In this document: positions 80 through 15,930 of the stretch, piece after piece
Position numbering within the stretch: position 1 is the first letter of the stretch
Layout of the letters: every line of letters starts with the position of its first letter
The notes under the pieces: generated by a model
What the model was told of the DNA's origin: nothing
The model's database searches: none
What the model saw: only the letters and a program-made list of their open reading frames with translations
Made by a program: the position numbers and the translations under genes
Assembly (NCBI RefSeq): GCF_015732285.1
Contig: NZ_WIQU01000036.1
Span: 1 to 64,000 of the forward strand
Reading direction: 5' to 3'
DNA from: Pectinatus frisingensis
Lineage (GTDB): Bacteria; Bacillota; Negativicutes; Selenomonadales; Selenomonadaceae
Length of the DNA: 64,000 bases

Positions 80-2375
80 AAACACTTATTTCATTTTTAT
101 ATGTTGCAGCGGCCTTACTGGGTGAATTAGTAATAATAATATTGTCATTATCATAAGCATCCCAGTTTGTCGGAGCTGTATCTACAGTATAATTAAGATT
201 GGCTTCTCCACTATTATCGAGAGAAATGGCAACAGGATCTGAATGTATGGCGGTATTGCCTGCTGTTAATGTACCTTTGGTATCGACAGTTCCATTAATA
301 AAACTTACATAAACAGTGGTATTTTTCATCTCCGGTGCCGTTATCTTTAAACTGTAAGTTTTACCGGTTTGTGCACCGTTGATAATTTGGTTTATGAGAG
401 TATTATTGTCAGCGGGAGTAGGAACATTGAAAGGTTCACTTACTGATAAAGCAGATTTTTCATTATTTGCTTCCAAAACTATTGATTTGTGAGCGGCTGT
501 TGTTGGTATTATAGTTTCATTTTTAATAACTGCGGTGTTTGAAGACTTGACAGGAGATATTTGTTTAAATAATATTTCATTAGGTTTATATTCTATTGGT
601 TTGATACCAAGGGTTTTAGACAAATCAGTTATTGGCAGCCACTGGATATTGTTTTTACTTATGATAGGGGAATCTTTAGTAATTAATTGTTCATCAACTT
701 TTATTTCATTTTCTTTATTGGAAACGCTGATTAAGTGATTATTGTAGATGAACCAGGTATTATCTTTATCATGGTGGGGAACTGTGTCGAGACTTTGTGT
801 TAAGTCTTGTAAAGTCATATATATTTGATTTCCTTTTTTAAAAGGCTGATTTTGTGCCACAGGTTCACCACTGTCAGGATCAAGGTATACTGGCGGGTTA
901 TAATAATCAGGTGAAAAATCAAACATATCGTCAAGTGAGCTGGCAAATGTATCAAAAGAACCATTTCCAATACGGCCTAGGTTCCAATTATCTTCAACAA
1001 ATCTTAAAACTGAAGATTGGTCAGCTATAGTGTGGATGACGGTGTTGTGTTTAGCATATGGGGAGATTAATAACATTGGCATACGCGGTCCGTAGCCTAA
1101 ACGTCCCTGATAATTATTTAATGGGGAATTAGTCCCTGCATTGACAGTATCAATATCTGGATCTTGGGAATGATTTATGATGGGCGGCATAACATGGTCA
1201 TACCAACCATCGGAATCATCATAAGTGACAAAGATAGCGGTGTTTTTCCATGTTGGCAGGGATTCTAATTTGTTGATAGTTTCTGCCAGCCAGCGTTGTT
1301 CACCGATTGGATCTGAATAAGAAGGGTGGCCGTCTTGATATGCAGGTGCTTTTAAAAATGAATAATTAGGCAGATTACCTGATTTTGCTGCTGCCCAAAA
1401 ATCAGTCATATCATACTGGTGGTTGGCACGGTCAGTATGTCCAATCATGGCGACTGATGTGGGGCGTTCATGCTGTAGGTTGGAAGTAGGATCGTAATAC
1501 TGGAATGGTTCGTGATGGGGAATATAATCAACAATATTTTCACCGGCAATATTTTTGTGTGTAGCGGTGGGATCATCGTATCCGCCAAAAAAACATCCCC
1601 AGGTTAAATCTTTTTTATTTAATAAATCACCGATATTGGTACCAGACATGGAAACCGTTTCTTTTTTCGAGGCGTAGTCATAATATGGATCGATATCTCC
1701 ATATAGTGTGCCAGTTTTAGTAACTGCTTTTTGGGGAAAATTTTTGTCGTCGGGAGAGATTTCTACACCATTTTGGGCTTTATTGGCACTATAAACAGTG
1801 GCGCCATGGTTATTACCAGAAATGACATTGATAGCTCCCGGAGTTGACGGACCTAAATTGGCACCAAAATAGTTGTCATTCATTGTAAAATGTTGTGCTA
1901 AATTCCACAAAGCGGTGACAGTATTGCCGTCATAATAATTCATTACATCAGCATTTCCGTGTCCATCATATTGAATGAATTTGTCCATTAAACCACCGTT
2001 GAAAGATTTTTGTTCAGCGGTATAACCATGGTCGAAATCTTGGGTGTGGGCTTGTGAACGGCTAAAGCGTTTCGGATTTGCCTGATTGGGGTTGTGCGTT
2101 AATAATGCCGGAGTCAATCCATTAATTGCAGGAGTATCCGGTGATGCAAAAAATAATGGTTCATTCGATGTATTTTCAGCAAAAGGATATGTTCCAAAGT
2201 AGTGATCAAATGATTCATTTTCATCAAAAATAACAACTACATATTTAATAGGGGTGATATTGCGGGGTGCCGCTAAAACAGGCGGTTGGATTGATACACT
2301 TCCGGCAGCTATTAGTGAACTGAGCAGAAAAAATTGAGTAAATAGATTGGATTTTTTTGATTTTTTAATTAGCAT
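72..2375 (-). CDS. secreted phospholipase C / acid phosphatase-type phosphoesterase with C-terminal stalk-like domain
   Basis: A 767-residue exported protein. Residues 1-35 form a signal peptide (positive start, hydrophobic core, Ala-rich cleavage region ending VLAAP). Residues about 42-480 match the phosphoesterase family of bacterial phospholipase C and AcpA-type acid phosphatases: DENESFDHYFGTYP near the start, then SGNNHGATVYS, and TYDDSDGWYDHVMPP. This family hydrolyses phosphodiesters or phosphomonoesters outside the membrane. Residues about 500-610 look like a copper-amine-oxidase-N-type (stalk) domain, followed by about 150 residues resembling a beta-rich tail. Homologues usually end soon after the catalytic domain, so the tail is extra. 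The start follows a strong GGAGGG site. It is transcribed alone, and its substrate cannot be told from sequence. Confidence 0.88.
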   Translation of the reverse strand: MLIKKSKKSNLFTQFFLLSSLIAAGSVSIQPPVLAAPRNITPIKYVVVIFDENESFDHYFGTYPFAENTSNEPLFFASPDTPAINGLTPALLTHNPNQANPKRFSRSQAHTQDFDHGYTAEQKSFNGGLMDKFIQYDGHGNADVMNYYDGNTVTALWNLAQHFTMNDNYFGANLGPSTPGAINVISGNNHGATVYSANKAQNGVEISPDDKNFPQKAVTKTGTLYGDIDPYYDYASKKETVSMSGTNIGDLLNKKDLTWGCFFGGYDDPTATHKNIAGENIVDYIPHHEPFQYYDPTSNLQHERPTSVAMIGHTDRANHQYDMTDFWAAAKSGNLPNYSFLKAPAYQDGHPSYSDPIGEQRWLAETINKLESLPTWKNTAIFVTYDDSDGWYDHVMPPIINHSQDPDIDTVNAGTNSPLNNYQGRLGYGPRMPMLLISPYAKHNTVIHTIADQSSVLRFVEDNWNLGRIGNGSFDTFASSLDDMFDFSPDYYNPPVYLDPDSGEPVAQNQPFKKGNQIYMTLQDLTQSLDTVPHHDKDNTWFIYNNHLISVSNKENEIKVDEQLITKDSPIISKNNIQWLPITDLSKTLGIKPIEYKPNEILFKQISPVKSSNTAVIKNETIIPTTAAHKSIVLEANNEKSALSVSEPFNVPTPADNNTLINQIINGAQTGKTYSLKITAPEMKNTTVYVSFINGTVDTKGTLTAGNTAIHSDPVAISLDNSGEANLNYTVDTAPTNWDAYDNDNIIITNSPSKAAATYKNEISVFS

Positions 2376-4113: not shown

Positions 4114-4138
4114 TAACATGAAAATAGAATATAGCTGG

Positions 4139-4291
4139 AAACAGGTGTCAGGAATGACTTAATAGGGAATTCGGTATAAAGCCGAAGCGGTCCCGCCACT
4201 GTATAGAAGAGTTTTTCAAAATATGTCACTGAAGCTGGTCTTTGGGAAGGCTTGAAAAACAATGATTCTGAGCCAGGAGAACTGCCTGTTT
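4139..4291 (+). promoter_or_regulatory. cobalamin (adenosylcobalamin-type) riboswitch
   Basis: The B12-box signature is clear: GAGCCAGGAGAACTGCC near 4270-4286, preceded by AATAGGGAA, the CGGT/GCCG stem, GCGGTCCCGCCACTGTA and GGGAAGGC in the canonical order. P1 closes as AAACAGG (4139-4145) with CCTGTTT (4285-4291), and the next hairpin is GTC/GAC. About 220 nt of leader with two terminator hairpins separate it from mutA, pointing to control by transcription termination. Cobalamin riboswitches usually repress uptake, synthesis or B12-independent isozymes; here the downstream enzyme needs the ligand. Confidence 0.95.
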
Positions 4292-4391
4292 TAACATCAC
4301 CGTTAGTGTCGTCGTTTAGTCGATGCTTATACCTGCGAGAGATAGGAAGGGAGATTTGATACTGTGAATATGAGTTGCATGGTAATTTTCT

Positions 4392-4420
4392 CCGGCTTTG
4401 TTATAGGCCGGTTTTTTATT
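4392..4420 (+). terminator. intrinsic terminator/attenuator 1 in the mutAB leader
   Basis: CCGGC pairs with GCCGG across a loop of about ten bases, followed by six T residues. It lies about 100 nt after the riboswitch aptamer, where an expression-platform terminator is expected. Confidence 0.6.
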
Positions 4421-4452: not shown

Positions 4453-4483
4453 ATCTGTCCGCCTCTTGCGGGCAGATTTTTTG
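4453..4483 (+). terminator. intrinsic terminator/attenuator 2 in the mutAB leader
   Basis: A ten-pair stem with one central mismatch or wobble (ATCTGTCCGC with GCGGGCAGAT), a five-base loop and a T-tract, ending about 25 nt before mutA. It is stronger than the first hairpin and the more likely decision point of the leader. Confidence 0.7.
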
Positions 4484-4509: not shown

Positions 4510-6726
4510 ATGAACGAGGAAGAAAAAAATCAGTCTGAAGACAGTAATCTTGATTTGCAGGCCATATTGAAAAAATCTGACCAGCAAACACAGTTTCCTA
4601 CTGTTCCACTCGATGAGTTTGTTCCACCTACGTATGAAGAATGGAAGCAAGCATGTATTACATTACTGAAAGGTGCACCCTTTGATAAAAAAATGTATAC
4701 AAAAACATATGAGGGTATAACTTTTGAACCAATGTATACGAGAGCTATGACGGAAAATATTTTGCCAAAAGCATCTTTTCCGGGAATGGACGATTTTATG
4801 CGTGGAGCTCGGGTAAATGGTTATATAAATCAACCATGGGGCATAGCTCAGTCTTGTGATGAGAGTCTGCCTAGGGAGAATAATAAATTATTAAAACATG
4901 AAGTAGATCGAGGTTCAACTATTTATAATATACATCTTGATAACGCCACTATTTTGAATCAAGATGCCCAGCATGCCGCAAAAGTTGGGGATGAAGGCTG
5001 TAGTATCACAACGATTGATGATATGTATCAGCTATTAGACGGACTTGATTTGAAAAAATATGGTTTGTATGTTTATGCGGGAGCTTCATCGCTACCAATG
5101 CTGTCAATGACGGCAGCGGCACTTAAGGCAGCTGGCAGACCGGTAAAGATGTTAAAAGGTTTTATCGGAGCAAATCCTTTAGGACAGTTGCTTGAGTCGG
5201 GAGAACTCTATACCTCATTAGACGAGTTATATGATGAAATGTATGCATGTGCTGTATGGGCGGGGAAAAATACACCGCAACTGAGAACTATCATGGTGCG
5301 CAGCGATGTGTTTAGTCGCGGCGGTGCTAATGACGTGCAGGAAATAGCATATACATTGTCTATGGCGGTTTCTTATCTGCGGGCATTATTGGAACGTGGT
5401 TTGACTATAAAACAAGCTTCGGGACAGTTGTTCTTTGGTTTTTCAATGGGAGCAAACTTTTTTATGCAGATAGCAAAACTCCGGGCAGTTCGTCCCATTT
5501 GGGCCAGAATAGTAAAGGCTTTCGGTGGTGATGAAATTGATCAAAGAATGCATATTCATGCTCGCCCTGCATTGTTTTTTAAGACAGTTTATGATCCTTA
5601 TGTAAATATGCTGAGAAATACTACTGAAATTTTTTCCGGAGTGGTTGGCGGAGTTGATTCATATGAAAATGCGCCGTTTGATGAACCAATAAGAAAGGGA
5701 GACGAATTTTCCCGTCGTATTGCCCGTAACGTGCAGATTATTTTGCAGGAAGAATTTGGTATGTTAAAGCCGATTGATCCGGCAGGTGGGTCGTGGGCAG
5801 TAGAAAGTCTTACGAAAGAAATAAAAGAAAAAATCTGGCATGAATTTCAGGCCGTGGAAGAAAAAGGCGGATTTCTCAAGGCTGCACAAGCAGGTTATCT
5901 CCAGGAAGAAATTGGCAAAATATTGCAGGCCAGATTTAAAAATTCTGAGTATAGAAAAGATCGCATAGTCGGTAATAATATGTATCCCAATTTGACGGAA
6001 GAACTGATCGATAAACGCAGTGAAGATGCCGATGAACTGAAAAAACAGCGTATGAATGATATTGGAGCTTATTTAAGTGACATAGATGGAATATTTGAAC
6101 AGGAATGCATCAGTAAAATTACCACAGCAGATTGGAATGAATTGACGGAAACGGTGATTGAGGCGATAAAAACCGGAGCAACAATTGGAGAAATACGCAA
6201 AACATTAAATACACGGCAACAGAAAAACAGTGCTGTTAGATCCACAGTTGAAGCGATACTGCCGCATCGCTGGAGTGAACATTATGAAGCTTTGCGCATG
6301 ATTACTGAAAAATATGTCGCAGAAAAAAATGATAATGCAAAAATATTTCTTGCTAATATGGGGCCTATACCGCAGCATAAGGCCAGAGCAGAATTTTCCA
6401 CTAGCTTTTTGCAAGTAGGAGGATTCGAAGTATTAAGCAATAATGGCTTCAAGACAATCGATGAATCTGTTGAAGCTGCACAAAAATCCGGTGCGGATGC
6501 AGTTGTAATTTGTTCAACTGATAAGACTTATCCGGATATTGTACCGGAATTGGCACCAAAATTAAGAAAAGCTCTGCCGAAAGCAGTAATTTACCTGGCA
6601 GGAGCAGCTCCGAAAGATTTGGAAACTGTTTATCACGAAGCCGGAGTTGATGATTTCATTTCAGTCAAGGCTAATTGCTATAAAATTTTGCAATTTTTGC
6701 AAAGAAAGAAAGGAATGATTGATTAA
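4510..6726 (+). CDS. mutA: methylmalonyl-CoA mutase, small (non-catalytic) subunit
   Basis: A 738-residue partner of MutB in the adenosylcobalamin-dependent mutase that interconverts succinyl-CoA and (R)-methylmalonyl-CoA, the carbon-skeleton step of propionate metabolism. The mutase barrel spans roughly residues 35-560 (for example [20 protein letters not shown] and [14 protein letters not shown]). The C-terminal flavodoxin-like domain (about 610-738) is present, but the cobalamin-ligating DxHxxG is replaced by [11 protein letters not shown], which marks the small subunit rather than the catalytic one. It is longer than many actinobacterial small subunits (about 620-640). The ATG follows AGAGGGAGG. 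It overlaps mutB by one base (TAATG). Confidence 0.95.
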
Positions 6727-8924
6727 TGGCTTTCATAAATCCTGATTTTAGCAAAATGGGCCTAGGAGATGCACCGACACATTCAAAACAGGAATGGATG
6801 AAAAGGATAGAACAGGAAGTCGGCATGGATTATGATAAAATCACCGGCCGGACAATGGAACATATTCCAATAAAACCAATTTATAATTTTGATGAATATG
6901 AACATATGAACCATTTGGATTTTGCCAGTGGTATACCGCCTTGCCTGCGTGGCCCTTATTCCACGATGTATGTATTTCGTCCTTGGACGGTACGCCAATA
7001 TGCAGGATTTTCTACGGCAGAAGAATCCAATGCTTTTTATCGCCGTAATTTGGCTGCAGGACAAAAAGGCTTGTCAATAGCATTTGATTTACCGACACAT
7101 CGCGGGTACGATTCTGATAATCCACGTGTATTAGGTGATGTCGGTAAAGCTGGTGTTGCGATTGATTCTATCCTTGATATGCGTATTTTGTTTAGCGGTA
7201 TACCGCTTGATCAGATGTCTGTATCAATGACAATGAATGGTGCCGTATTGCCGATAATGGCATTTTATATATTGTCCGGTGAAGAACAGGGAGTAGATAA
7301 GAGTGTTATGGCCGGTACTATTCAAAATGATATTTTAAAAGAATTTATGGTACGTAATACTTATATATATCCACCGGAAATGTCAATGCGTATAATAGGT
7401 GATATTTTTGAATATACGACAAAATATATGCCTAAATTTAATAGTATATCAATTTCCGGTTATCACATGCAGGAAGCTGGGGCAACAGCGGATATAGAAC
7501 TTGGCTATACATTGGCTGACGGACTTGAGTATATTCGTACCGGTGTAGGAGCAGGGTTACCAATAGATGCTTTTGCCAAACGTTTATCGTTCTTCTGGGC
7601 AATAGGGAAAAATTATTTTATGGAAGTGGCAAAGATGCGTGCGGCACGTGTTCTTTGGGCTAAGATAGTGAAATCTTTTGGTGCGGAGAATAATAAATCT
7701 ATGGCACTTCGTACGCATTGCCAGACTTCAGGCTGGTCGCTGACGGCACAAGATCCGTTTAATAATATCGCCCGTACCTGTATGGAAGCGATGGGGGCGG
7801 CTTTAGGGCATACACAATCATTGCATACAAATGCTCTTGATGAAGCTATTGCACTGCCAACTGATTTTTCTGCTCGTATTGCCCGTAACACGCAGCTTTA
7901 TATTCAGGATGAAACACGTGTATGCAAGATAATTGATCCTTGGGGCGGTTCTTATTATGTAGAAGCTCTGACTAATGAAATAATAAGGCGGGCATGGGCA
8001 CATATTCAAGAGGTCGAAGCATTGGGCGGCATGGCTAAGGCAATATCCACAGGTCTGCCGAAGATGCGTATCGAGGAAGCTTCAGCTCGCCGTCAGGCAC
8101 AGATCGATTCAGGAAACGAAACTATTGTCGGACTGAATAAGTATCGTTTGGAAAAGGAAGATCCATTGCAAATATTGGCTATAGACAACACTGCCGTCCG
8201 CAATTCTCAGATAGAACGTTTGAAAAAATTACGGGCAGAAAGGAATGCTGATGAAGTCAGAAGTTGTCTGGAAGCACTTACTAAGGCCGCTGAATCTCGC
8301 GATAATGGTAATCTGCTGGAACTTGCAGTAAATGCAGCCAGGGCGCATGCTTCCTTGGGAGAAATTTCTGATGCTGTTGAAAAAGTATCGGGACGCTTTA
8401 ATGCTGTCATTCATACTATTTCAGGGGTATATTCATCTGAATTTACGGATAAAACTGAACTCGATAAAGCCCGCGGTATGGCTGATACATTCGAAAAACT
8501 GACCGGTCGCCGGCCGCGTATTTTTGTTGCAAAAATGGGACAGGATGGACATGATCGCGGTCAAAAAGTAATTGCATCGTCATTTGCTGATATGGGATGG
8601 GATGTCGATGTCGGGCCTTTGTTCCAGACACCGGCAGAAACGGCCCAGGATGCTGTTGATAACGATGTCCATATGGTAGGTTTCAGTTCACTGGCAGCCG
8701 GTCATAATACTCTTTTACCACAATTGGTTGAAGAGTTGAAGAAACTTGGACGGGAAGATATAATGGTCGCCATAGGCGGTGTAATACCAGTACAAGATTA
8801 TGATTTTTTGTATAAACATGGTGCAGTTGCAATATTCGCTCCAGGAACTAATATACCGGAAGCAGGTGTAAAGCTGCTGACACTTTTGATTAATGAGGCC
8901 AAAGAAGAAATGGCCGAAGGATAA
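6726..8924 (+). CDS. mutB: methylmalonyl-CoA mutase, large (catalytic) subunit
   Basis: A 732-residue catalytic subunit. The substrate-binding barrel fills residues about 30-560 ([40 protein letters not shown]). The C-terminal domain carries intact D607-G-H609-D-R-G, in which the His is the lower axial ligand of cobalamin, followed by [14 protein letters not shown]. With MutA it forms the heterodimer that moves the CoA-carboxyl group between carbons. It is coupled to mutA by a one-base overlap and is followed after 3 bp by the GTPase chaperone. No methylmalonyl-CoA epimerase, decarboxylase or transcarboxylase gene lies nearby, so the rest of the pathway must be elsewhere. Confidence 0.97.
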
Positions 8925-8927
8925 ATT

Positions 8928-10109
8928 ATGGCTGAATATAAACGTTTTAAACCCGATTGGGCACCAAAAGAAAAAAATGAGGCTTTTGCCTGCAGTGTGA
9001 TGGATGGAATTAATGGAGTAAAAGATACTACTGTGGGGAATCTCAATCCGATGCTGTTGAATGGAAAGAGAAAAACGAAGCGGAAGATGCTTTTGAATGT
9101 TGATGATTATGTTAGTGGTGTGTCTGAGGGAAGCCGCACTATTCTTTCACGGGCAATTACTCTTATCGAAAGTAATAATCCACAGCATTTTGCCAAGGCT
9201 CAGCAAGTCCTGCAAAGACTTTTGCCACGCACAGGAAAAGCGCTGCGTATTGGCATAACCGGAGTGCCGGGTGCCGGTAAAAGTACTATGATAGAAGCTT
9301 TTGGCAATATGCTGTGTAATATGGGGCACAAAGTGGCAGTACTTACTGTTGATCCGACAAGTTCAGTTACAAGAGGATCAATTTTAGGTGATAAAACACG
9401 TATGGGAACGTTATCAAGAAATGAAAAAGCTTTTATCAGGCCATCACCGGCTGGAGGAACATTGGGAGGGGTGGCGCGAAAAAGCCGCGAAACAATGTTG
9501 ATGTGCGAAGCTGCAGGTTATGATATAATCATCATCGAAACAGTGGGAGTTGGACAGTCAGAAACAACAGTACGTTCTATGGTAGATTTTTTTATGCTGG
9601 TGGTGCTGACCGGCGCCGGTGATGAGCTGCAGGGAATAAAAAAAGGCATAATGGAATTGGCTGATGCAGTAGTTATAAATAAGGCTGATGGAGATAATTT
9701 ATTGAAAGCCAAGGTATCACGCGGTGAATATGAGCGAATGATTGAATATATACGCCCGGCTACCGACGGTTGGCAAACACATGCTTACCTTTGTTCGGCA
9801 CTTAAAAAGACGGGATTAAAAGAATTGTGGCAAGTGATAGAAATATTTACTCAGATGACAAAAAAAAGGGGCTCGTTTCAAAAACGACGGGAACATCAGT
9901 TGCTTGACTGGGTGCATAGCATGATAGATGAACATTTGCACAATTTGTTTTTTGACGATCCAGTAATAACGGGCCGTATACCGGAAGTTCGAAATGCTGT
10001 ATTGTCGGGAAAAATATCACCTACTCAGGCTGTAGCAGAGCTGATAAAAATGTTCGATATTGAACGTGCAGCATGTCGTCATACCGGATTATTTGACATC
10101 CATGAATAA
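8928..10109 (+). CDS. meaB: MeaB/ArgK-type GTPase, mutase chaperone, with N-terminal extension
   Basis: A 393-residue G3E-family GTPase. The P-loop GVPGAGKS begins at G112; the switch region DPTSSVTRGSILGDKTRM and the NKADGDN guanine-recognition motif follow. MeaB proteins bind methylmalonyl-CoA mutase, gate loading of adenosylcobalamin and help remove inactivated cofactor. The position 3 bp after mutB supports this role. Typical MeaB proteins are about 310-340 residues and begin near what is residue 57 here (VDDYVSGVSEGSRTIL). The preceding stretch, with KFKPDW-like and KRKTKRK segments, is extra. There is no better internal start with a ribosome site, so I keep the long form. Confidence 0.93.
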   Translation: MAEYKRFKPDWAPKEKNEAFACSVMDGINGVKDTTVGNLNPMLLNGKRKTKRKMLLNVDDYVSGVSEGSRTILSRAITLIESNNPQHFAKAQQVLQRLLPRTGKALRIGITGVPGAGKSTMIEAFGNMLCNMGHKVAVLTVDPTSSVTRGSILGDKTRMGTLSRNEKAFIRPSPAGGTLGGVARKSRETMLMCEAAGYDIIIIETVGVGQSETTVRSMVDFFMLVVLTGAGDELQGIKKGIMELADAVVINKADGDNLLKAKVSRGEYERMIEYIRPATDGWQTHAYLCSALKKTGLKELWQVIEIFTQMTKKRGSFQKRREHQLLDWVHSMIDEHLHNLFFDDPVITGRIPEVRNAVLSGKISPTQAVAELIKMFDIERAACRHTGLFDIHE

Positions 10110-10177: not shown

Positions 10178-10735
10178 ATGTACGCTAAGAAAATTTACTT
10201 TGCCGGCGGAAATTTTCATGAACTTCAGGAGGTTTTTTCACGGATAAGGGGCGTACTGTCGGCAACTGCCGGATATATAAACTCAGATGCTGTTGCTCCG
10301 TCTTATGAAAAAGTGGCAGGAGATATGACTGGTGCTGCAATGGGAATTGAAATTTCTTATAATCTAAAGGAAATAGATTTATCGACATTACTGGATATAT
10401 TATTTGCTGTCATAAATCCCTATTGTCGTGATGAACGGGGAAATATGTATAGAAGCGGTGTTTATTATTGTGATAAAGAGGATGAAGTGATAATCGAGTT
10501 TTATATGAATTTTTTAAGAATGAGATATAAGGCACCTGCTGTTACGGCAGCTAATGTCACGGTAAACGATCCTTGTTCAGATAATAAAGCTGTATATAAA
10601 TGCTATGCGGAAGCAGTGCCATTGCGTAATTTTTATCCGGCAGAAAAAAAACATCAATATTATTTGCGAAAAAATCCTCGGACGAAGACTTTCATTGACT
10701 TTTTACGGCTCAGGGAACTGGATATAATAACATAA
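10178..10735 (+). CDS. MsrA-fold protein lacking the catalytic cysteine (probable pseudoenzyme)
   Basis: A 185-residue protein that follows the MsrA (peptide methionine-S-sulfoxide reductase) pattern throughout: KKIYFAGG at the start, FSRIRGVLSATAGYIN, PSYEKVAGDMTGA, then LLDILFAVINPY, GNMYRSGVYY, and a C-terminal FYPAEKKHQYYLRKNP. The active-site motif GCFWG is here GNFHE, so the nucleophilic Cys is N12, and the acid in GHAEAVEV is lost (GAAMGIEI). Remaining cysteines (83, 98, 133, 142) are not at the catalytic position. Reductase activity is therefore not expected. It starts 68 bp after meaB behind GGGGATGG and ends before a strong terminator, so it is the last gene of the mut operon. Its role is unknown. 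Confidence 0.85.
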   Translation: MYAKKIYFAGGNFHELQEVFSRIRGVLSATAGYINSDAVAPSYEKVAGDMTGAAMGIEISYNLKEIDLSTLLDILFAVINPYCRDERGNMYRSGVYYCDKEDEVIIEFYMNFLRMRYKAPAVTAANVTVNDPCSDNKAVYKCYAEAVPLRNFYPAEKKHQYYLRKNPRTKTFIDFLRLRELDIIT

Positions 10736-10756
10736 TAAATTAAAATACCGGTTATG

Positions 10757-10798
10757 AAATTTAGGATAAGTATAATTTAAGCTTATCCTAAATTTTTT
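10757..10798 (+). terminator. intrinsic terminator of the mutAB-meaB operon
   Basis: A 14-bp perfect stem (AAATTTAGGATAAG with its complement) and a loop of about 11 bases, running into a T-rich tract, 20 bp after the MsrA-like gene. Confidence 0.88.
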
Positions 10799-10832
10799 AC
10801 TGTTTTTTTACAAAAGTTTTTAATATTCAGAT

Positions 10833-12500: not shown

Positions 12501-13397
12501 TTATAATGTGACGTTGAATCCGTTTTGTTGAAAGACTTTGGCGTACTGTGTAAGATTTTCACTATGCAGTTCCTTAGTATTTTTAAAATTGTAGGGACGA
12601 TTTAACTGTTCATATTTTTTTTGGCCGAATTGGTGAAAAGGTAATAGATTAATATCTTTTATATCCAGTGAAGCCAGTAAATGAGAAAATTTAACAGCAT
12701 CAGCTATTTTATTATTTACACTTGGTATGACGGGAATACGGATTATTATTTCTTTTTGCAGGGTTATTGCATAGGCTAGATTTAATAATATGATATCGTT
12801 ATATACACCGGTATATTTTTTGTGTTTTTGACGGTCATAATGTTTTATGTCAAACAATAGTAAATCTGCATTGATGATTGTTTGTTTAAATACTGTTTTG
12901 CTGGCGTAACCAGTGGTTTCTAAAGCAGTGTGCAGATTGTTCTCTTTAGCAGATTTTAATAAAGCGGCCGCAGCTTCGGGTTGCATTAAAACTTCACCAC
13001 CGGAAAGAGTCAGTCCGCCACCGGATTCTTCATAAAAGGGTTTATCTTGTAATACTTCTGCCATTATGGAATCTATGGATTTAAACTGTCCGACCTTTGA
13101 TAATGCACCATGAGGACAATTATCAGCACATGCGGTACAGGTCTGACAAAGTTTGGACTTATAGCTGAATGATAGATTTTTGTCAAAGTAAATGTTTTTT
13201 TGCGGGCAGAGCATTTCGCAGGTGCGGCAGTGATAACATTTGTCTTTATCCCAAAGAAGCTGCCGGTATTGTTGCTGCGATTCCGGATTGCTGCACCAAA
13301 GGCAGGTCAATGGGCAACCTTTAAAGAATACTACCGTCCTTATTCCAGGACCATCGTGAATACTGAATTTTTGTATATTAAATATATTTGCTAACAT
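12501..13397 (-). CDS. glycyl radical enzyme activating enzyme (PflA/PflC/YbiY type)
   Basis: A 298-residue radical-SAM enzyme. The cluster motif CPLTCLWC (residues 29-36) sits in the usual first 40 residues. Two ferredoxin-like clusters follow (CYHCRTCEMLCP and CQTCTACADNCP), typical of activases for eliminase-type glycyl radical enzymes and absent from the plain PFL activase. ESGGGLTLSGGEVLMQ is the SAM-binding GGE motif. It makes the glycyl radical on its partner by hydrogen abstraction with SAM. It is transcribed away from the enzyme gene at 13522, with a 124-bp shared control region, unlike the same-strand arrangement in E. coli. The ATG follows AGAGGTAG. Confidence 0.94.
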   Translation of the reverse strand: MLANIFNIQKFSIHDGPGIRTVVFFKGCPLTCLWCSNPESQQQYRQLLWDKDKCYHCRTCEMLCPQKNIYFDKNLSFSYKSKLCQTCTACADNCPHGALSKVGQFKSIDSIMAEVLQDKPFYEESGGGLTLSGGEVLMQPEAAAALLKSAKENNLHTALETTGYASKTVFKQTIINADLLLFDIKHYDRQKHKKYTGVYNDIILLNLAYAITLQKEIIIRIPVIPSVNNKIADAVKFSHLLASLDIKDINLLPFHQFGQKKYEQLNRPYNFKNTKELHSENLTQYAKVFQQNGFNVTL

Positions 13398-13417
13398 ATA
13401 ACTACCTCTGTTTTATA

Positions 13418-13438
13418 TTGACAAAATTGTTTGACAAG
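13418..13438. repeat. short direct repeat TTGACAA-N6-TTGACAA
   Basis: Two copies of TTGACAA begin 13 bp apart (13418 and 13431) between the divergent activase and enzyme genes. The second is the -35 of the enzyme promoter. It may contribute to regulator binding or be an alternative -35; this cannot be decided from sequence. Confidence 0.35.
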
Positions 13439-13463
13439 GTTAACTTTCAATGTTATTATAACA
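13431..13463 (+). promoter_or_regulatory. promoter of the glycyl radical enzyme gene with overlapping palindromic operator
   Basis: TTGACA, 17 bp, TATTAT with an upstream TGn (an almost ideal promoter). TGTTAT-T-ATAACA (13451-13463) is a perfect inverted repeat centred on the -10. Known DeoR-family operators in E. coli begin TGTTA and end TAACA or similar, so binding by the nearby DeoR-family protein is a reasonable inference. Confidence 0.62.
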
Positions 13464-13521
13464 ATAAATAACAATAAAAATCAATATAAAATAATAAAAT
13501 AATTTTTTTAGGAGGATTTAT

Positions 13522-15930
13522 ATGAAAATAAATAAGCATTTTGGCTGTCTTACAGCACGTATGGATAAATTCAGAGGAGATCTTGTTAATGCCAAACCGT
13601 ATATTTGCGCGGAGCGCGCTGTCTATACCACTGAAGCTTATAAGCACTTTGCCGATAGACCTATTATTGAAAAAAGAGCTTATATGCTGAAAAATATTTT
13701 AGAGAAAATGACTGTTTTTATTGAACCGGAAACATTGATTGCGGGAAATCAGGCATCTGGTAATCGTTTTGCTCCTGTTTTTCCCGAATATGCGATGGAT
13801 TGGGTTATAGATGAATTGGATAAATTTGAAAAAAGGGATGGTGATATTTTTTATATAACGGAAGAAACTAAGCATAAACTAAGAAATATAGCACCCTATT
13901 GGCAGCATAATACAACTAAGGATAAAGGATTGGCGATGATGCCGCCAGAAAGTAAAATATTTTATGATTTGGGGATAATAAAAGCTGAAGGCAATATTAC
14001 TTCTGGAGATGCGCATCTGGCAGTCAGTTATGAAACAATTTTAAAAAAAGGTTTGAAAGACTATCAGAAAAGAACTGAACAGGCACTGCGGATACTTGAT
14101 TTGACAACTATGGATGGAATGAATAAATATCATTTTTACAAGGCCGTTTTGATAGTTATAGAAGCTGTTCGCAGTTTTGCCGGACGTTATTCCGATTTGG
14201 CTGAACATGAGGCACAGTCGGCTGCAGTAAATCGTAAAAAAGAGCTTTTAACAATGGCGCAGATTTTGCGCAAGGTACCTTATGAACCGGCTGATAGTCT
14301 GTATGAGGCTGTACAGTCGTTATGGCTGATCCACTTAGTGCTGCAGATTGAATCAAATGGACATTCATTATCGTATGGGCGAGTTGATCAATATTTATAT
14401 CCATACTATAAACATGATATTGATAAAGGAATAATTACACAAGATGGTGTTTGTGAACTCTTGACTAATTTGTGGTTGAAAACCTTTACGATAAATAAAG
14501 TACGCAGTTGGTCACATACGCAGTTCAGTGCAGGCAGTCCTTTGTATCAGAACGTGACTATTGGCGGCCAGACGATAAATAAGAAGGATGCAGTAAATCC
14601 GCTGTCGTATTTGATATTGAAAAGTGTTGCCCAGGTTCATTTGCCGCAGCCTAATTTAACAGTTCGGTATCATCGGAGCATTAGTGATGATTTTATGCGG
14701 GAATGTATTGAAGTAGTCCGTCTCGGTTTTGGTATGCCGGCGTTCAATAACGATGAAATAATAATTCCATCATTTATTGAAAAAGGTGTCAAGGAAGAAG
14801 ACGCTTATAATTATAGTGCCATTGGCTGTGTAGAAACAGCTGTTCCGGGGAAATGGGGATATCGTTGCACAGGGATGAGTTTTTTGAATTTTCCTAAATC
14901 ATTGCTCATCGGTTTGAATGATGGTATCGATCTTGAATCGGGGACAAAACTTATGGAAGGTACAGGACATTTTTGCAGGATGCATTCTTATGATGATGTA
15001 AAAAACGCTTGGAATAAAACGATTCGTTACTTTACCCGGCAAAGTATTATTATTGAAACCTGCTGTGATATGGTGTTGGAGAAAGATGTACCTGATGTGC
15101 TTTGCTCAGCTTTGGTTGAAGATTGTATTGGGCGTGGTAAAACATTAAAAGAAGGTGGTGCAGTTTATGATTTTATAAGTGGTCTGCAGGTGGGAATTGC
15201 TAATATGGCAGATTCTTTGGCAGCAATTAAAAAATGTGTGTTTGAAGATAAGAAATTGACACCACAGCAATTGTGGGATGCGTTAGTAAGTGATTTTTCC
15301 GGAGAGGAAGGTGAACGTATCCGCCGTATTTTGATTGACGCACCTAAATATGGTAACGATGATGATTATGTTGATAAGCTTATTTGTGAAGCCTATGACG
15401 TATATATTGACGAAATAAAAAAATATCATAATACTCGCTATGGTCGGGGACCGATTGGTGGTACTTATTACGCAGGTACATCTTCAATTTCGGCAAATGT
15501 AGGTCAGGGGATGGGGACATTGGCAACTCCCGATGGCAGAAAAGCACATACACCATTGGCTGAAGGATGTTCTCCGAGTCACGCTATGGATGTGAATGGG
15601 CCAACAGCTGTATTTAAAACGGTGGCAAAATTACCGACACACGAAATAACCGGCGGAGTATTGCTCAATCAGAAGGTAACACCGCAAATATTAGAAAAAG
15701 AAACTGACCGTACAAAATTAGTTTATCTTATAAGGACTTTTTTTAATCGTCTGAATGGATATCATGTGCAGTATAATGTCGTATCACGAGCTACTTTGCT
15801 TGACGCCCAGCTGCACCCGGAAAAACACCGCGATCTTATTGTCAGGGTAGCAGGTTATTCGGCATTCTTTAATGTATTATCGAGGCAGACACAAGATGAT
15901 ATAATTGCCAGAACCGAACAAGTATTATAG
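13522..15930 (+). CDS. glycyl radical enzyme of the eliminase (PflD/YbiW) type
   Basis: An 802-residue glycyl radical enzyme. The thiyl cysteine is C436 in SAIGCVETAVPGKWG. It is followed by E438, and Cys-x-Glu is typical of dehydratase/lyase members, whereas true pyruvate formate-lyase has Cys-Cys. The radical glycine is G778 in VRVAGYSAFFNVLS, 24 residues from the end. The protein works anaerobically after activation by the divergent radical-SAM gene. The neighbouring FSA gene argues for a sugar-phosphate-like substrate. I recall that YbiW has been linked to ring opening of 1,5-anhydroglucitol-6-phosphate followed by FSA cleavage, which would fit, but the substrate here is not established by sequence. 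The start follows TTAGGAGG. Confidence 0.93.
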   Translation: MKINKHFGCLTARMDKFRGDLVNAKPYICAERAVYTTEAYKHFADRPIIEKRAYMLKNILEKMTVFIEPETLIAGNQASGNRFAPVFPEYAMDWVIDELDKFEKRDGDIFYITEETKHKLRNIAPYWQHNTTKDKGLAMMPPESKIFYDLGIIKAEGNITSGDAHLAVSYETILKKGLKDYQKRTEQALRILDLTTMDGMNKYHFYKAVLIVIEAVRSFAGRYSDLAEHEAQSAAVNRKKELLTMAQILRKVPYEPADSLYEAVQSLWLIHLVLQIESNGHSLSYGRVDQYLYPYYKHDIDKGIITQDGVCELLTNLWLKTFTINKVRSWSHTQFSAGSPLYQNVTIGGQTINKKDAVNPLSYLILKSVAQVHLPQPNLTVRYHRSISDDFMRECIEVVRLGFGMPAFNNDEIIIPSFIEKGVKEEDAYNYSAIGCVETAVPGKWGYRCTGMSFLNFPKSLLIGLNDGIDLESGTKLMEGTGHFCRMHSYDDVKNAWNKTIRYFTRQSIIIETCCDMVLEKDVPDVLCSALVEDCIGRGKTLKEGGAVYDFISGLQVGIANMADSLAAIKKCVFEDKKLTPQQLWDALVSDFSGEEGERIRRILIDAPKYGNDDDYVDKLICEAYDVYIDEIKKYHNTRYGRGPIGGTYYAGTSSISANVGQGMGTLATPDGRKAHTPLAEGCSPSHAMDVNGPTAVFKTVAKLPTHEITGGVLLNQKVTPQILEKETDRTKLVYLIRTFFNRLNGYHVQYNVVSRATLLDAQLHPEKHRDLIVRVAGYSAFFNVLSRQTQDDIIARTEQVL

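Follow-up and report, generated by a model that had tools for sequence, protein, structure and literature searches.

The window examined here, i.e., the whole stretch of 64,000 nucleotides from Pectinatus frisingensis, contains an operon for methylmalonyl-CoA mutase which ends with a gene for an MsrA-type protein without the catalytic residues of that reductase. The question is what such a protein, designated pMsrA in the following, could do in this operon, and why it has been kept there. The GTDB family of the window is denoted f1, other GTDB families f35, f15 and f28; loci and genomes carry the prefixes L and G, respectively.

The open reading frame of pMsrA starts with ATG and is unbroken, and the Pfam model PMSR (PF01625) matched residues 5–169 with 105.6 bits and an E value of 3.9e-30; thus, the resemblance to MsrA which the first-pass annotation had pointed out is not due to chance. 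The NCBIfam model TIGR00401 (msrA) scored 102.3, slightly below its cut-off of 108.1. Landmarks of MsrA are the catalytic Cys and the Trp of the motif GCFW, the acid of GHAE and the resolving Cys of GYCH. In the window protein GCFWG has become GNFHE, with Asn12 in place of the catalytic Cys, and the acid of GHAE has become Met55 (GAAM), both as originally described. Alignments showed also His14 instead of the Trp, Asn80 instead of the Asp of the following DPT motif and, at the C-terminus, TKTFID where MsrA has GYCH, the resolving Cys being gone.

An AF2 model (62 aligned sequences; pLDDT 86.0, pTM 0.81) predicted the MsrA fold from end to end. The best PDB relative by sequence was 3bqf, the MsrA domain of PilB from Neisseria (6.8e-26), and comparison of the model with this structure gave a Z of 25.2 and an rmsd of 1.6 over 161 residues. 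All clear structural matches (Foldseek/VIA) were MsrA. Matches of another kind from the same searches, heavy-metal domains with a Z of about 5, were read as a common fold arrangement. The insert listed in Table 1 is about 20 residues long and poorly modelled, with residues 119–123 and 127–133 under a pLDDT of 50. Judged from its sequence, pMsrA is a pseudoenzyme derived from MsrA by loss of the catalytic residues, and putatively inactive. The same genome encodes a separate MsrA with intact GGCFWG, so that the reductase activity would be available elsewhere.

On one strand, the unit consists of a cobalamin riboswitch, mutA, mutB, meaB, pMsrA and a hairpin (Table 1). The predicted MutA also matched the NCBIfam small-subunit model TIGR00642, with 393.7 bits and under the cut-off of 617. 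The location between meaB and a terminator, as proposed in the first pass, was borne out, since the gap to meaB is 68 bp and a hairpin with a U-run follows; the region 10736–10815 folds with -21.5 kcal/mol (z -5.08 versus shuffles), and a separate hairpin scan had not listed this hairpin. Control of pMsrA by B12 is judged by position only, the riboswitch preceding mutA in the window and pMsrA itself in f15.

Table 1. Features of the pMsrA operon in the window
Feature	Position	Strand	Description
Cobalamin riboswitch aptamer, upstream of mutA	4126..4303	+	Rfam RF00174, 106.8 bits, E 9.4e-26, full-length
Terminator-like hairpins after riboswitch	4392-4411 and 4453-4477		Hairpin scan
mutA, methylmalonyl-CoA mutase small (non-catalytic) subunit	4510..6726	+	Pfam MM_CoA_mutase 488 bits
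mutB, mutase large subunit with B12-binding domain	6726..8924	+	NCBIfam PRK09426 1251.6 bits, cut-off 876
meaB, mutase G-protein chaperone	8928..10109	+	NCBIfam PRK09435 483 bits, cut-off 329
pMsrA, MsrA-fold (predicted), without catalytic Cys, catalytic acid and resolving Cys	10178..10735	+	185 aa
Lineage insert of pMsrA	10532..10609	+	About residues 119-144 (TVNDP...CYA); not in the canonical MsrAs aligned
Hairpin and U-run, likely terminator of the unit	10756..10796	+	16-bp stem

Elsewhere in the window, the region 12501–15930 holds a glycyl radical enzyme of 802 aa (950 bits to TIGR01774), and an activase is encoded on the opposite strand. The enzyme scored under every equivalog cut-off listed; the genes before it are for a DeoR-type regulator and a protein resembling fructose-6-phosphate aldolase. 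At 72–2375 on the minus strand, a large phospholipase C/acid phosphatase-like protein matched TIGR03397 and TIGR03396, both under cut-off.

A methylmalonyl-CoA epimerase gene is often found beside mutases. A role of pMsrA as a replacement for the epimerase was considered and rejected: neither TIGR03081 nor the VOC epimerase family matched it, only MsrA models being hit among the Pfam and NCBIfam profiles, and TIGR03081 was over its cut-off in 53 of 60 genomes. The epimerase of the genome to which the window belongs is encoded at L121 (G000:C61:88000-103000), a second mutase locus of the same genome, which comprises a 550-aa mutase, a separate B12 domain, a MeaB-like G protein and carboxylase-like genes.

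Is the loss of the catalytic residues peculiar to this strain? In a first sample of 60 genomes (own included; 37 from f1), pMsrA homologues were present in 26, all of them f1, the other 25 copies being 40–64% identical to that of the window. All 26 genes follow meaB directly (fragmented at L025). Scanning of named species yielded 121 relatives; the best 80 of these were kept and are labelled as Selenomonadaceae, as genera placed there, or as uncultured Selenomonadales or Veillonellaceae bacteria. Many of the bearers are named as rumen Selenomonadaceae, in which propionate formation is expected. Among 81 copies (the window's and the best 80 of 121), residue 12 was Asp in 49, Ser in 28, Asn in four and Cys in none, and a Cys was absent from residues 9–16 throughout. 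Residue 55 was Met in 57 copies and Glu in two; His or Tyr occupied position 14 in 76, Phe13 was kept in 73 and Tyr91 in 57. Since residue 12 is Asp, Ser or Asn in every copy and never Cys, this is a feature of a family and not a local loss; Asn is only one of three states, and the loss of the Cys is old. The question put in the first pass, whether homologues with GNFH motifs form a clade, has to be answered with a correction: a family without the catalytic Cys does form a clade, but Asn12 is a minority state within it.

All 62 pMsrA members examined matched the msrA model TIGR00401 at E ≤0.001, and with scores so near to the naming model an annotation of some copies as active reductases is possible. 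Viral contigs contained no relative of pMsrA; in a plasmid collection 727 records matched, all with less than 60% identity, and of five matches listed one was named msrA and one msrB, with three unannotated. A natural fusion of pMsrA to a partner was not seen in the loci examined; in G015, a long frame is located at the edge of a contig, where pieces of meaB are repeated.

A profile search of 200 genomes of the class Negativicutes extended the range. Six genomes outside f1 scored 156–196 bits, as compared to at most 104 bits for other MsrAs there. Two of these, from f35 (L130, L132), have the gene order mutA-mutB-meaB-pMsrA as in f1, the motif GGPYYG and still the Glu. When 12 f35 genomes were searched, high-scoring copies were found in six; those at L142, L143 and L145 also sit after meaB, while at L144 the contig start cuts off the locus, with meaB and the motif out of view. 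The f35 motif is GGPYYG or GGSYYG, and the Glu is kept in five of six f35 forms (the motif of L144 being unseen). Such forms, with the Glu retained after loss of the Cys, would resemble an intermediate. Downstream of pMsrA at L130 there are two more cobalamin riboswitches in tandem (1689–1862 and 1960–2133, minus strand).

In f15, pMsrA (L135, motif GISVYD) is located directly upstream of mutA. Among 63 genomes from the order of f15, all seven of genus g77 had a copy, each upstream of mutA (L135–L141). A cobalamin riboswitch ends about 395–450 bases before pMsrA in all six loci searched (L139 was left out); pMsrA is thus the first gene of the unit there. The motifs are GISVYD, GISACD, GGYVYD, GEAYS or GKIDE, and four copies (L138:1687, L139, L140 and L141) comprise only 140 aa, the HQ..Y..NP stretch at the C-terminal end of the MsrA fold being absent. 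At L137 a Cys stands at the old Trp position, two residues past the catalytic site. The remaining three genomes, from f28 (L131, L133, L134), contain MsrAs with intact GGCFWG, GAAE and GYCH and no mut genes within the approximately 10 kb fetched; they carry an insert at the same place as pMsrA, shorter in L133 and L134, and L131 has also NPKKTDL and EDEP. Of the lower-scoring matches in the searches of f35 and the f15 order, only L146 was read, and it has intact GGCFWG. A homologue with an intact GCFW motif in the same locus, which would have spoken for a recent loss, was found neither among the 81 copies nor among 12 further mut-linked copies with readable motif from f35 and f15.

Phylogenetic trees placed these copies in one group. 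A tree of MutB and MeaB was constructed from 42 operons, with 26 of the f1 operons used; L120 and L135–L137 were dropped, since near-full MutB and MeaB were lacking, and L139 and L144 were not entered. The 34 tips with pMsrA formed one clade with support of 1.0, and the eight operons without it were outside, two of them (L119, L128) from f1 itself. In a tree of 47 MsrA-type sequences (L144 left out), all 38 pMsrA proteins grouped together with a bootstrap value of 100. Both trees showed the same order, f35 and f15 together being sister to f1, and the nearest sampled outgroups of the pMsrA clade were the three intact, mut-unlinked MsrAs of f28. Genomes of f1 with another type of mutAB-meaB (G027 and G075; G087 by its MeaB), or in which the second mutase type is the only one (G005, G010, G014, G034, G036), are without pMsrA. 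It follows one clade of mutase operons, not the host family. In the simplest account of the sequence data, an insert-bearing active MsrA would have been recruited once, within the Negativicutes, into a riboswitch-controlled mutA-mutB-meaB operon, would have lost its redox chemistry on recruitment, and would then have been inherited with the operon clade, the position of the gene changing in one branch (f15).

The linkage is close, although less strict than "always beside mutAB-meaB", the wording of the first-pass question. A complete or partial meaB was just upstream of pMsrA in 70 of the best 80 of 121 named loci; among the ten loci with no adjacent meaB (L075, L085, L089, L090, L093, L098, L099, L101, L103, L104), nine are from genomes with a clade-type MeaB elsewhere. 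Scattered parts were searched for in 14 genomes, i.e., those of the ten loci and of L092, L094, L102 and L105. MeaB with at least 64% identity was detected in 13 of them, most with a scattered operon (in G072 as a fragment only), and none in G073; near-full MutB with 82–88% identity was present in 12, with fragments only in G073 and MutA-like pieces without MutB in G070. In G064, for example, three contigs are involved: C13 carries MeaB, C46 carries MutB, and the contig with pMsrA (L093) holds neither at those places. Where the operon is scattered, pMsrA and the mutase parts mostly persist together. The second type of mutase was found only in G073 among these 14 genomes, most of which have the first operon scattered.

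Co-occurrence with mutAB-meaB, on which the first pass had made its reading depend, was strong in 151 f1 genomes (own included), which were sorted by hand from two match tables, one for pMsrA and one for clade-type MeaB: 119 had both, 24 neither, two only pMsrA and six only MeaB. Fisher's test gave a p of 3.8e-20, a value which ignores phylogeny and is inflated by linkage and co-loss in one operon. The two genomes with pMsrA only are G077 (the match is partial and the assembly 83% complete) and G103 (fragmentary, like its named locus L075). Of the six with MeaB only, G079 has a relocated, truncated copy and the contig of G105 ends inside meaB. The other four, G086, G130, G136 and G155 of genus g21, keep mutB and meaB (L122–L125) and look like real losses of pMsrA; G086 groups with pMsrA-bearing relatives in the MeaB tree (support 0.96), which implies at least two losses in g21. 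G008 was uninformative, its contig ending right after mutB. Since these four genomes retain mutB and meaB without pMsrA, the latter is not strictly required, and L122–L125 could serve as natural knock-outs for comparison.

These distributions bear on the notion that pMsrA is a B12-responsive protein with a job of its own, which merely shares the riboswitch transcript with mutAB-meaB. Rumen lineages that keep pMsrA apart from meaB and mutAB (L085, L089, L090, L093, L099, L103, L104) would fit, and so would f15, where it comes first behind the riboswitch. However, pMsrA tracks one mutase-operon clade, and among the 151 f1 genomes there was no clear case of pMsrA without MutAB and MeaB, as the matches in G077 and G103 are incomplete and G070 has MeaB. 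We regard an independent function as unlikely.

The claim that the gene is kept by selection was upheld. The median dN/dS was 0.145 for pMsrA and 0.042 for MeaB (162 of 2016 pairs, with unsaturated dS); purifying selection on pMsrA is shown thereby, and by this measure it evolves about 3.4 times faster than MeaB. Internal stops occurred in two of 122 genomes with a pMsrA copy, G079 and G134, and in none of the other 120. The copy in G079 (L127:1366-1800, minus strand) is relocated and truncated, and the whole-genome match runs through three TGA codons. A functionless hitchhiker in decay might be suspected from the faster evolution, the losses, the two genomes with stops, the truncated copy at L127 and the 140-aa forms of f15. 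Yet the gene is retained through relocations and in three families, which have conserved positions in common, and with dN/dS well below 1 this reading is largely refuted and must be considered extremely improbable.

Positions fixed or nearly so in f1, f35 and f15 are P63, K65, D67, E101, D102, F112 and N130. Core glycines, aromatics and other residues are also kept in the three families and occur in active MsrA too; D102, and partly P63, are found in active MsrAs as well. In the model, the strand beginning at the old Glu is followed by a loop with residues 63–67, and 101–102 head the helix after a short strand (94–97). Both places would seem to lie away from the old active site. The pocket motif, in turn, drifts freely in f15, and no catalytic-looking residue of the pocket is common to f1, f35 and f15. 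Conserved positions outside the catalytic site together with a drifting pocket would be more in keeping with a binding protein than with an enzyme.

Nevertheless, the restriction of residue 12 to Asp, Ser or Asn, and mostly of residue 14 to His or Tyr, in the 81 copies makes some function of the pocket possible. It might be a remodelled active site (Asp/Ser/Asn12, His/Tyr14, Met55) for other chemistry, e.g., on a CoA thioester or on damaged cobamide, for which the retention of F13 and Y91 in most of these copies and the Cys of L137 could also be cited. A new enzyme of this kind is nonetheless improbable: a catalytic-looking residue shared by the three families is missing, f35 has GGPYYG or GGSYYG, the f15 motifs are varied and some f15 copies are without the HQ..Y..NP part, and the activity that might be expected, that of an epimerase, is encoded elsewhere in most of the genomes, as outlined above. 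Alternatively, pMsrA could read oxidative damage by binding, without reduction, to methionine sulfoxide of the mutase or of its chaperone, as the first pass had also considered. The MsrA fold predicted end to end and the partly kept pocket (F13, Y91) are compatible with that. Sulfoxide binding usually needs the catalytic acid, the Trp and the DPT Asp of MsrA, though; the window protein has other residues at all three sites, and nothing of the motif is left in f15 forms. In one family the pocket motif drifts, whereas positions elsewhere are invariant or almost so; this tells against a sensor of oxidised methionine, and the proposal appears quite improbable.

The retention of a dead MsrA with the mutase operon across three families points to a probable non-catalytic helper of the mutase. 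The comparisons make it reasonably probable that pMsrA is a pseudoenzyme, recruited once, which now acts as a small non-catalytic accessory of MutAB-MeaB. Binding to the mutase or its chaperone, as initially put forward, is the reading which fits best, and we infer the physical interaction, its partner and its effect. The protein would be made in step with MutAB-MeaB and could bind the complex by surfaces off the old active site, namely, the NPKKxD loop, the ED-headed helix and the ND-containing insert; it may then aid B12 loading, retention or assembly of the mutase. The docking site could perhaps be on MutA, the non-catalytic subunit, namely, on its TIM barrel. A mirror-tree comparison of distance matrices (48 of the 81 members, those with near-complete sequences of all four proteins) gave partial correlations with pMsrA of 0.62 for MutA, -0.02 for MutB and -0.10 for MeaB, calculated with no null; the value for MutA was 0.49 once MutA had been cut to a third, likewise with no proper null. 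These values favour MutA, chiefly its barrel, over MutB or MeaB as a lead only.

Going further, some Negativicutes, including Selenomonadaceae, may possess a four-component mutase (MutA, MutB, MeaB and pMsrA), in which a dead MsrA on MutA, derived from an insert-bearing MsrA, would, subject to B12 control, govern the loading of the cofactor or the assembly of the holoenzyme; this is a tentative proposal, which we consider possible rather than probable. We know of no earlier case of an MsrA fold in a structural or chaperone function, and pMsrA would be the first if the proposal is true; intact, unlinked relatives of the recruited insert-bearing MsrA would then still survive. Mutase and MeaB are a model for B12 cofactor delivery, with the human counterparts MMUT and MMAA, and a conserved fourth operon member would add a player to this well-studied system. 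The titles and abstract beginnings of the open-licence papers listed mention no MsrA homologue that is inactive and encoded with a mutase, and pMsrA as a conserved fourth member is apparently undescribed so far.

Among known systems, the methylmalonyl-CoA epimerase (TIGR03081) is likewise found beside the mutase/meaB pair, but its family is unrelated to pMsrA. With the MeaB/MMAA chaperone system, the operon shares the mutase and MeaB, which is reported to help to load AdoCbl into the mutase and to take out damaged cofactor (PMC10481361); the system as described there consists of mutase, MeaB and adenosyltransferase, with no MsrA-fold partner in that description. The mutA riboswitch of Veillonella parvula is among those drawn in a cobalamin riboswitch study (PMC9600662), and a riboswitch on such a gene was therefore already known. 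MsrA proper (EC 1.8.4.11; PF01625), e.g., the PilB domain 3bqf, is of the same sequence family and the same predicted fold; in contrast to it, pMsrA is devoid of the catalytic Cys, the acid, the Trp and the resolving Cys, has an extra insert and is encoded in a B12 mutase operon. The MsrAs of f28 are the nearest tree relatives and share the site of the insert, and in L131 also the NPKKTDL and EDEP motifs; unlike pMsrA, they keep GGCFWG, GAAE and GYCH at loci apart from mut genes. With the intact forms still extant next to the pMsrA clade, pMsrA would represent an unusually clean conversion of an enzyme to a pseudoenzyme.
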